Source of the DNA: Candidatus Kaiserbacteria bacterium | Lineage (GTDB): Bacteria > Patescibacteriota > Minisyncoccia > Phycocordibacterales > UBA2100 | Length of the DNA: 32,543 bases | Assembly: GCA_028286585.1 (NCBI GenBank) | Contig: JAQBRI010000007.1 | Span: forward strand, 82,479 to 115,021 | Direction of reading: 5' to 3' | Shown: piece after piece, positions 23,590 to 27,225 of the stretch | Layout of the letters: each line of letters starts with the position of its first letter | Numbering within the stretch: position 1 is the stretch's first letter | Made by a program: the position numbers and the translations under genes | Notes under the pieces: generated by a model | The model's input: the letters and a program-made list of their open reading frames with translations, nothing else | Database searches by the model: none | Told to the model about the DNA's origin: nothing

Positions 23590-25086
23590 ATGACGGGGGT
23601 CATGGTATGGGCGGCACTTATAGGATGCGTGGCAGGAATCATATTGAGTCTCGTGACTCATGTTGGTTTTTTGTTTGCCGCACTTTTATTTGTAGTCGCA
23701 TGCGTCAGCATGTTCTGTTCTCGGTTGTTTCACCGGTACTCATTTTATTTTCTTGCTGTTACTCTCTGCTGTGTGGGAATGGGGATTGGAGTTATACGAG
23801 GATATATGGTGTTGCATATTCCGGTTTCGAAGGTGCACACTTTTTTTGGTCAGCGAGTACTGATGACCGGTGATGTTGTACTCGAGCCCGACGAACGGGA
23901 CACTGGAATGCGAGTCACACTTGCCGCCCATAGTATTGTTGGAACAAGTACTTCTGCAGTTGTTGACGAGCGGGTGCTCGTGGTACTTCCACCCCACTCT
24001 GATATTGGATACGGTGACCATATAACGATTACCGGTACAGTAACCGTGCCAAAACCTTTTGCGACCAACGGCGGCAAAATGTTCGATTATCCGGGATACC
24101 TTCATGCACAAGGCATTGATACTATTCTCTCGTTTGCCAACATCAGTGCTGATGAGACGGGCGGCGGCAAAATAATTGCAGCGGTATTGCATATCAAAAA
24201 GATTTTTTTGGAAGGAGAGCATGCGGTCTTACCCGAACCACAATCTTCGCTTGCGGGCGGAATATTGGTTGGCGACAAGCGGTCAATCGGCAAAGATCTT
24301 TCGGCCGCATTCCAACGGGCATCGCTCACGCATATACTCGTCCTTTCTGGTTACAATATAACAGTTGTCGTAGATTGGCTGATTAACATCCTTTCGAGAA
24401 CCCCAAGGATAGTACAGTCGGGTTCCGCACTTGGGGCAGTGTCGTTTTTTATTATTATCTCTGGCGGGTCCGCGAGCGCAGTGCGTGCGGGCTGCATGAC
24501 ACTAATTGCGTTATATGCCCGGATATCGTCCCGCATGTTTGATGCGCTTCGAGCATTGGGGCTGGTTGCGGTTGGTATGCTTTTGGTTAATCCGCTTATC
24601 ATTTTGTATGATCCGAGTTTTCAGTTGTCATTTTTGGCAACGCTAGGGCTTGTATTGTGTTCGCCATATGTAGCACCGTATTGTTTTTGGATTACCGAGC
24701 GCTTTGGAATACGCGAGTTAGTCGTTGCAACATGTGCCACACAATCCTTGGTCGCACCTTACATTTTGTATACCAGCGGCACGCTATCGTTGGTTGCGCT
24801 GCCGGCAAACATACTCGTTCTCATTGTTATGCCACTTGCGATGGGATTGAGTGCGTGCGCTGGCATTCTTGGAGTGTTCTTTGGATCGTCCGTCGCACTG
24901 GTTGCATACCCAGCCTATCTAGTGCTTTCGTATATTCTTTCGATGACACAATTTTTTGCAGCATTTCCATTTGCCAGCGCGACTTTTTCGCACATTCCCA
25001 CATGGCTGATTGTTTTGTGGTATCTCGCACTCGGATCATATATTGGCATTACCTCATACAAAAAAACAACCGAGTCACAAACATGA
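23590..25086 (+). CDS. comEC: ComEC/Rec2-type competence protein, channel domain only
   Basis: 498 aa; multi-TM; SLTHILVLSGYNITVVV, GGSASAVRAGCM, DPSFQLSFLATLGL signatures; no C-terminal MBL domain. Confidence 0.9.
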   Translation: MTGVMVWAALIGCVAGIILSLVTHVGFLFAALLFVVACVSMFCSRLFHRYSFYFLAVTLCCVGMGIGVIRGYMVLHIPVSKVHTFFGQRVLMTGDVVLEPDERDTGMRVTLAAHSIVGTSTSAVVDERVLVVLPPHSDIGYGDHITITGTVTVPKPFATNGGKMFDYPGYLHAQGIDTILSFANISADETGGGKIIAAVLHIKKIFLEGEHAVLPEPQSSLAGGILVGDKRSIGKDLSAAFQRASLTHILVLSGYNITVVVDWLINILSRTPRIVQSGSALGAVSFFIIISGGSASAVRAGCMTLIALYARISSRMFDALRALGLVAVGMLLVNPLIILYDPSFQLSFLATLGLVLCSPYVAPYCFWITERFGIRELVVATCATQSLVAPYILYTSGTLSLVALPANILVLIVMPLAMGLSACAGILGVFFGSSVALVAYPAYLVLSYILSMTQFFAAFPFASATFSHIPTWLIVLWYLALGSYIGITSYKKTTESQT

Positions 25087-25099
25087 CTCGGTTGTTTTT
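25062..25099. terminator. Bidirectional terminator between convergent genes
   Basis: AAAAACAACCGAGTCA-CAAACA-TGACTCGGTTGTTTTT. Confidence 0.9.
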
Positions 25100-25121
25100 A
25101 TCTTTGTCTCGCACCGATGAT

Positions 25122-25614: not shown

Positions 25615-26205
25615 TTATAATCCTGCAAAGCGGTTTTCCACCGCTGTCCAATTGAGATTTTTGAAGAATGAATCGATATATCCGCCCTTGCCTTGTGCAC
25701 CATAGTCGAGCAGAAACGCATGTTCCCATACATCGAGTGCAAGTACGATAGGTAGTGTCGCAAAATGCCCTTGATGCTGCTCACCTGCAAATCCGATATG
25801 AAATGTTTGCACAGACTCATCATAATAGAGAATTGCCCATCCAGGACCTCGCATCAAACCGACCTGCTTGAGCTGTGCAAGCAGAGTATCGGTGCTTCCA
25901 AATTGTTTTGAAATAGCCTGTGCAAGTGGTGATTCTGCATTGCTTGAGGTTGCAGCAGTTTCGAGCTGGGTAAAATATATTTCATGGAGACGCATGCCAT
26001 CAAACTCGAATGACAAACGACGAGTCAGTTCCGAAATCGCGTGTGCATTTTTTGCGGAGTCGCTCATGAGGTCTTGGACTGCTGCAGTAATTGCATTAAA
26101 GTTTTTTACGTATCCGTTATACAAACCGATGTGTTCATCGATCGATTTTTGAGAGATTCCTTCGAGGGTGGGAATAGTAAAAGTTTTTGGTTCGTATGTG
26201 TGCAT
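25615..26205 (-). CDS. Fe/Mn superoxide dismutase family protein
   Basis: 196 aa; DEHIGLYNGYVKNFN, LHEIYFTQL, GPGWAILYYD, LDVWEHAFLLDYG (D and H metal ligands retained). Confidence 0.9.
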   Translation of the reverse strand: MHTYEPKTFTIPTLEGISQKSIDEHIGLYNGYVKNFNAITAAVQDLMSDSAKNAHAISELTRRLSFEFDGMRLHEIYFTQLETAATSSNAESPLAQAISKQFGSTDTLLAQLKQVGLMRGPGWAILYYDESVQTFHIGFAGEQHQGHFATLPIVLALDVWEHAFLLDYGAQGKGGYIDSFFKNLNWTAVENRFAGL

Positions 26206-26225: not shown

Positions 26226-26333
26226 GTTCTTTTCGACATTGTTTTTAAAAGCACGCATATTTGCCTACTGGCAAATTGCTCCTCTCGCGCCGCCGCGCTG
26301 CGAGAGGCTTTTAAAAACAATGTCTCAAAGAAC
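26226..26333. repeat. 108-bp imperfect inverted repeat with two inner hairpins (three-way junction/cloverleaf-like)
   Basis: 27-nt arms GTTCTTT-TC-GACATTGTTTTTAAAAGC / GCTTTTAAAAACAATGTC-TC-AAAGAAC (25/27 paired, 18 contiguous) enclosing ATTTGCC-TACT-GGCAAAT and CTCTCGC-N11-GCGAGAG. Confidence 0.92.
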
Positions 26334-26382
26334 TCTGGTAAGTGCTTTTATTATAGCAAATATACGGGTGTAGTATGAGGGG

Positions 26383-27225
26383 ATGCAGTTGAGTGCACGT
26401 ATAGTGGGGTCGATACTTGTGCTGTGCTTTGTCGTAACGCTCATGATCTGGAATTTTCTTTTGGGGCGCGACAAGAATATGCACATAACAATAGCGCCAA
26501 GTGGCGCCTCGGTCGTGACCCTTATAAGGACTCCCGGAAATAAATCGATACTAATCGGAGGGGGAAGTGATGCGAGCGTATTGCGCATCGTTTCGAGCAT
26601 ACTGCCATGGTATCAACATTCACTCGATACACTGATTCTGCCTCAAATTGATGCAGTTCATTCTGGAGGCACTATTGATTTGCTGCGACGATATCAAATT
26701 CCAATTGTGCTCATGGAAAGTGCGGCCGGAAAGGGGGCTGAATGGGTATCACTTTTGGATGCGTTACGTTCGGTTTCGAGTAGCGCACGCAAAGTGCCGC
26801 TTATGCGAGGGGAAATACTTTCCACGGATGACGGTTTGTATATACGGGCACTGTTACCCGACAGAAACATGCCGCATGCAGATTCACATACGGCGTGTTC
26901 TCCGCTCAAAATCGTGTATGGAGCGACTGCAGCGTTGCTGATGTGCGATATCAATCCAGCAATACTGCCGTATCTTGCCTTTCTTGATGGCTCTACGCTT
27001 GAGGCACAAATAGTGGTGCTTCCGGAATCAGTATTCAAATCAAACAACGTGGATTTTTTGCTTGGTTTTGCAAAACCCCGCGAAGTTGTCGTGATGCATG
27101 TCTGTACGCAGGGGATAGCGAGTACGACATTGCGAACTATTCAAAAATTTAATGCACGCAGTATCGATCCGTGTTCAGTGCCAGTTTCAATAGAATCCAA
27201 TGGAACAATAATCGTATTTCGTTAG
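26383..27225 (+). CDS. Membrane-anchored protein resembling the ComEC C-terminal metallo-beta-lactamase domain, degenerate
   Basis: 280 aa; N-terminal TM, then NKSILIGGGSD...SLDTLILPQIDAVHSGGTIDLLRRYQI, aligning by pattern with the ComEC LIDGG...THxDxDHxGG region. Confidence 0.65.
   Translation: MQLSARIVGSILVLCFVVTLMIWNFLLGRDKNMHITIAPSGASVVTLIRTPGNKSILIGGGSDASVLRIVSSILPWYQHSLDTLILPQIDAVHSGGTIDLLRRYQIPIVLMESAAGKGAEWVSLLDALRSVSSSARKVPLMRGEILSTDDGLYIRALLPDRNMPHADSHTACSPLKIVYGATAALLMCDINPAILPYLAFLDGSTLEAQIVVLPESVFKSNNVDFLLGFAKPREVVVMHVCTQGIASTTLRTIQKFNARSIDPCSVPVSIESNGTIIVFR

Follow-up and report, generated by a model that had tools for sequence, protein, structure and literature searches.

A dispersed repeat family of Parcubacteria that conserves a three-way fold and is possibly recognized as a single strand

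A 108-nt inverted repeat located upstream of a superoxide dismutase (SOD) gene of a Candidatus Kaiserbacteria bacterium belongs to a previously uncatalogued repeat family, which is present in many Parcubacteria, a group of ultra-small bacteria. The copies hold the same three-way fold while the sequences of their stems change completely, and this suggests a small mobile element that is recognized through the shape which one of its strands adopts on folding. The reading that we favor, with a probability of roughly 0.55, is that of a non-autonomous, probably mobile dispersed repeat family of Kaiserbacteria and related Parcubacteria, which is recognized as a folded single strand. The parts of the copy in the window (the whole stretch of 32,543 nt that was analyzed, from contig JAQBRI010000007.1) and the neighboring genes are listed in Table 1.

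Dispersal, conserved fold and strand bias

BLASTN detects dispersed copies of the element both in the genome from which the window comes, which totals 885 kb on 20 contigs, and in 25 of 60 relatives. A covariance model (R1), built from 20 copies that were picked by sequence alone and aligned with MAFFT without structure, and giving E-values that are to be taken as rough, locates 22 complete copies and a single fragment (~23) in the own genome, as well as copies in 48 of the 60 relatives, at 0-31 per genome. Among 116 genomes sampled across the phylum only three besides the own genome have R1 matches, one of them with 11 copies; hence, the model is not a mere detector of any palindrome. An exact pattern of the core is found on 41 GTDB contigs, whose informative titles all point to Patescibacteria (Kaiser-, Nomura-, Vogel-, Harrison- and Liptonbacteria), the remaining ones being titled just 'bacterium'. 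The viral contigs searched for the element gave no match, no family of Rfam release 15 matches it at the gathering threshold or at E<=5, and the open-licence literature yielded neither a paper on it nor one joining Parcubacteria with MITEs and inverted repeats. The preliminary description of the window copy had proposed such a search of the genome and its relatives, with a single copy of unconserved pairing as the result that would count against it. Instead, the copies are many and their pairing is conserved, and multiple dispersed copies are the outcome that it had associated with a mobile element.

The copies are short, non-coding and intergenic, and the genes flanking them are diverse. In terms of longest-ORF calls, on which the gene contexts rest, copies are often found between convergent genes and within a few nucleotides of a stop codon, which applies to 29 of 75 close contexts. 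Their orientation to the neighboring genes shows a modest bias, (-,-) 24 versus (+,+) 14, on which we do not rely. In one relative (G009) a SAM riboswitch (RF00162; L025:1638-1737, minus strand) and one of the copies are ~100 nt apart. Three copies of the own genome (L048, L055 and L059) have an extra insert of ~55 nt, itself a hairpin, within hairpin A; internal length variants likewise occur in some of the ERIC/RU elements and other bacterial MITEs.

On recomputation the arms of the window copy (26226-26252 and 26307-26333) pair at 25 of 27 positions, as originally described, with 54 nt between them. The three-way junction that had been predicted emerges on both strands, with -54.4 kcal/mol (z -10.8) on the plus strand and -56.6 kcal/mol (z -9.8) on the minus strand, and in either case 0 of 200 shuffles are as good. 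Both hairpins that had been reported as independent and perfect 7-bp structures are present; ATTTGCC-TACT-GGCAAAT continues for three extra base pairs across one bulged base, and the second hairpin (26282-26306) contains an internal bulge. The 18-bp inner stem is part of the conserved element and the outer 7 bp lie beyond it.

Table 1. Parts of the window copy and features of the surrounding locus (positions within the window)
Feature	Position	Strand	Remarks
Whole element	26226-26333	-	Conserved, better-folding 'A-B strand'; R1 match C7:108705-108810 (-), 108.6 bits
Inner stem P2, 3' arm on minus strand	26235-26252	-	18 bp; pairing conserved, sequence nearly free
Inner stem P2, 5' arm on minus strand	26307-26324	-	Pairs with 26235-26252
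Hairpin B	26255-26279	-	7-bp stem of constant length; ANYA tetraloop, in this copy AGTA; 3 further pairs beyond a bulged A
Hairpin A	26282-26306	-	CTCTCGC-AGC-GCG-GCGG-CGC-GAGAG; conserved CAG bulge, GNCG loop
Outer stem P1 (7 bp) and internal loop	26226-26234	not assigned	Outside the conserved part; varies among copies in length and sequence
P1 partner and internal loop	26325-26333	not assigned	Outside the conserved part
Fe/Mn superoxide dismutase (SOD), host gene	25615-26205	-	PF02777, E 8e-22
MBL-like gene, host gene	26383-27225	+	Conserved SOD neighbor in the genus (tblastn synteny); no Pfam match
Probable SOD -10 box TATAAT	26350-26355	-	Upstream of the element; from sequence and the same motif before SOD in relative L093

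An examination of the pairs across copies reveals extensive compensatory change. In the structure-free alignment of 20 copies 34 of 43 pairs vary on both sides, with 203 double-changed cells versus 67 in shuffled and 40-66 in slid controls. In an alignment of 109 copies, which unlike the former was fitted to the structure, 91.1% of the pair cells are standard, 35 of 37 pairs show double changes, and the double-changed cells number 1282 versus 389 (shuffled) and 213-329 (slid); as the copies are related, such counts of changes do not equal independent events. The arms average 40% identity between copies, yet pair within each copy. P2 is ~18 bp long, almost free in sequence, and has an internal G.A region. 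In 30 of the first 32 copies to be examined, hairpin B has a 7-bp stem (10 in one copy) together with an A-N-Y-A loop; its 7 pairs covary in the set of 109. Hairpin A retains its CAG bulge and GNCG loop among copies. Conservation stops ~8 nt beyond P2, and no conserved promoter was found upstream of the copies.

Read on the strand in which hairpin A precedes hairpin B (the minus strand of the window), P2 contains 129 G.U against 16 A.C combinations, and 35 against 7 in the structure-free alignment. Since a G.U pair on this A-B strand is an A.C mismatch on the complement, the wobble bias marks the strand. The same strand folds better in 97 of 107 copies with RNA parameters and in 100 of 107 with DNA parameters. 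The G.U:A.C ratio is 15:2 in copies co-directional with both adjacent genes and 28:4 in those running opposite to them; the bias is thus the same whichever way the neighbors run, and folding of their mRNA cannot explain it. An intrinsic single strand, be it ssDNA or an RNA of the element's own, can account for it, and strand-biased cytosine (C-to-T) damage could be a partial source. The want of a conserved promoter, together with the point at which conservation ends outside P2, lends mild support to ssDNA.

The copy at the superoxide dismutase locus

The window copy lies upstream of both divergent genes, as had been noted. The likely -10 box of SOD is in turn upstream of the element, which for this reason probably sits in the SOD 5' leader of this genome; TGCTATAAT also precedes SOD in a relative (L093). 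The order of ComEC, a small membrane protein, SOD and the MBL-like gene is kept across the genus (tblastn), and 29 relatives have no R1 match between SOD and MBL. Among 30 SOD loci the element precedes SOD only in the window's genome; in the relative L119 a copy lies on the opposite flank of the SOD gene. Of 22 SOD-MBL spacers that were inspected, over half are short (26-109 nt) and empty, and a few of the rest harbor unrelated hairpins. Because the gene order is kept in relatives that lack the element, the window copy is, judging from these comparisons, an insertion specific to this lineage, placed between the start codon of SOD and its probable promoter, and it may affect SOD in this organism.

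As SOD and its neighbors persist across the genus without the element, the earlier suggestion of a structured 5' UTR with a conserved function in regulating SOD finds no support. The alternative offered alongside it, a non-autonomous mobile palindrome, best fits the 22 dispersed copies, the range of copy numbers among relatives, the empty SOD-MBL spacers and the near-identical copies described below. A non-coding RNA, the third proposal, is conceivable, although the copies show neither a conserved promoter position nor an Rfam match. No target-site duplication was evident at this copy on re-examination either, and the closest genome for reading the ends of the insertion, at ~80% DNA identity, is too distant. 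Other palindromes were observed in the SOD-MBL spacer (L092, L103 and L108, and also L099 and L109), comprising perfect stems of 17-21 bp and inverted repeats containing CCCGTTAGA. Directly after the ComEC gene of the window (25055-25106) there is an inverted repeat with A- and T-tracts, which resembles an ordinary bidirectional intrinsic terminator.

Slot re-use and the search for a mobilizer

One relative (G017) contains ~165-bp units that are 98% identical, arms included, at unrelated loci, and these represent recent dispersal; they end in TA...TA, which is not diagnostic of target-site duplication. An analysis of ~107 of some 400 copies counted in relatives shows many of them sharing an intergenic slot with copies of other genomes. 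The slot with the largest group of copies is the replication origin, flanked by rnpA/rpmH and dnaA (genes identified by inspection of their proteins and, for DnaA, by Pfam as well). Here a copy is present at 9 of 30 dnaA loci; of the remaining loci, some contain a hairpin of a second kind, its arms being up to 27 bp long, and some contain nothing. This second family of long-armed hairpins (L258, L259, L261, L266, L273 and L278 upstream of dnaA, and L207), with arms up to 27 bp that are often perfect, has the interior GAACMTCGCGCAGC...AGTGGTGAT, adjoining half-copies and no Rfam match. Low-complexity hairpins with TAGC/CTAG-rich or similar arms were also seen upstream of dnaA (L271, L272, L274, L276).

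The occupants of a given slot differ in several ways. The origin copies of G003 and G061, whose DnaA proteins are 98% identical, have an identical core and share ~55% of their arm bases, each being well paired. Downstream of purC in G003 and G008 the outermost bases are shared, as are the flanks (~80% identical over 250 nt), but the inside is of a different subfamily (L147/L190). The same-slot pairs L146/L183 and L133/L164 display compensated block changes or indels, and in L256/L257 the arms diverge more than the flanks or the core. In L184/L186 the arms (34/36) and core (53/55) are better conserved than the flanks (77-82%), with a compensatory change, which suggests vertically inherited copies under selection in place.

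The own genome encodes a single Y1/RAYT-like transposase (~232 aa; L038, G000:C8 around 32454), whose gene lies amid copies of another repeat, AATGGGGTCAGCCACGATTTA / AATGGGGTCAGCCACGATTTATTA (e.g. L038:1126-1150 and 1157-1190). Across the genus Y1 and copy number are uncorrelated (rho 0.15, p 0.38), and genomes with 31, 19 and 9 copies (G053, G048 and G004) have no Y1 match. The other repeat at this gene and the lack of tracking led us to reject Y1/RAYT as the mobilizer. No integron integrase above the TIGR02249 cut-off was found in any of 60 genomes, the partial sub-threshold matches being as expected of Xer-like recombinases. A Pfam search of 124 proteins flanking copies showed no enriched transposase family, four IstB matches among them probably being the AAA domain of four DnaA proteins, and no autonomous partner with the same ends was seen among the flanking genes.

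Competing explanations and the proposed mechanism

Comparison with known systems suggests that the element works somewhat like attC or REP sites while being a member of neither. attC sites are folded as single strands, with variable stem sequence and a strand preference (PMC2727003), and the element resembles them in its strand-preferring single-strand fold, variable stem and presumed structural recognition. That it is itself an attC site is hardly credible, given the lack of integrases above the cut-off, the lack of cassette arrays and the absence of any R-box consensus seen; furthermore, its branched tip is conserved and its outer stem variable, the reverse of attC, where the tip is the variable part. 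It is also very unlikely to be a REP/REPIN of a RAYT (TnpA-REP, Y1) transposase. Like these repeats, which are thought to be non-autonomous (PMC8266576, PMC3733652), it is palindromic, dispersed and intergenic, with strand-specific folding in a genome that has one Y1 gene; but REPs are 20-40 bp long with a tetranucleotide tag (PMC3733652), whereas the element is a three-way structure of ~106 nt with no terminal tag recognized, and its copy number is independent of RAYT, as detailed above. With ERIC/RU-1, RU-2 and other bacterial MITEs (PMC2229807, PMC2759123, PMC10969869), which are non-coding intergenic repeats of ~100-170 bp and presumed non-autonomous and mobile, it shares its size, multi-copy state and location. 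However, MITE copies share the sequence of their terminal repeats, whereas here the arms differ between copies and always pair, and no target-site duplication was seen.

The main rival, which we consider rather unlikely, is a structured RNA or cis-element that spread by duplication and is kept by selection, each copy being transcribed on the A-B strand and binding a protein. The massive covariation and the tolerance of G.U are typical of RNA, and a covarying three-way junction with a conserved tetraloop is a design seen in Rfam structured RNAs; the conservation of L184/L186 beyond their flanks and the recurrence in the same slots, e.g. upstream of dnaA, point the same way. Against it speak the lack of a conserved promoter and of an Rfam family, the dispersed and variable occurrence among relatives with slots empty or replaced, and the diverse flanking genes. 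A terminator or a 3'-UTR/5'-UTR stabilizer in the mRNA of a neighboring gene would agree with the frequent position between convergent genes close to stop codons; it is improbable in view of the strand bias, which is indifferent to which strand is co-directional with the neighbors, and of copies in divergent spacers (SOD-MBL, rnpA-dnaA). It is just as improbable that arm pairing is kept mainly by fold-back copying, i.e. palindrome correction, with no selection on function: the compensated blocks and indels of L146/L183 and L133/L164 and the divergent arms of L256/L257 are in its favor, but it leaves the constant helix lengths, the conserved unpaired bases and the wobble asymmetry unexplained. 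Such copying could, nevertheless, act jointly with mobility.

The favored reading of a probably mobile repeat itself has to contend with the failure to find a mobilizer or a target-site duplication and with the apparent vertical inheritance of L184/L186; it is compatible with the structured-RNA or cis-element reading if copies can be domesticated. Under the mobile reading the functional form would be one strand (here the minus strand) folded upon itself, with the 18-bp stem opening into a three-way junction from which two hairpins of constant geometry branch. This strand would most likely be DNA exposed at replication rather than RNA, and a putative host or mobile-element enzyme acting in trans would recognize its shape and a few unpaired bases and insert or exchange the element in intergenic slots. 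Tentatively, the family might even stand for a mobile module of a new class in the Candidate Phyla Radiation, a folded single strand that is recognized by its shape. Like cassettes, such modules would be re-inserted or swapped at fixed slots, the replication origin among them, and fold-back copying would rewrite both arms together, giving each copy a private self-complementary stem.

To our knowledge, hardly any small dispersed repeats have been described from bacteria of the Candidate Phyla Radiation. The present family shows a very clear signature of shape over sequence, with a strand assignment that is independent of host genes. The covariance model, together with defined loci such as empty and filled slots and the origin-proximal hotspot, provides a means to seek the enzyme that recognizes it. 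The origin regions of these reduced genomes have been repeatedly colonized by long hairpins.
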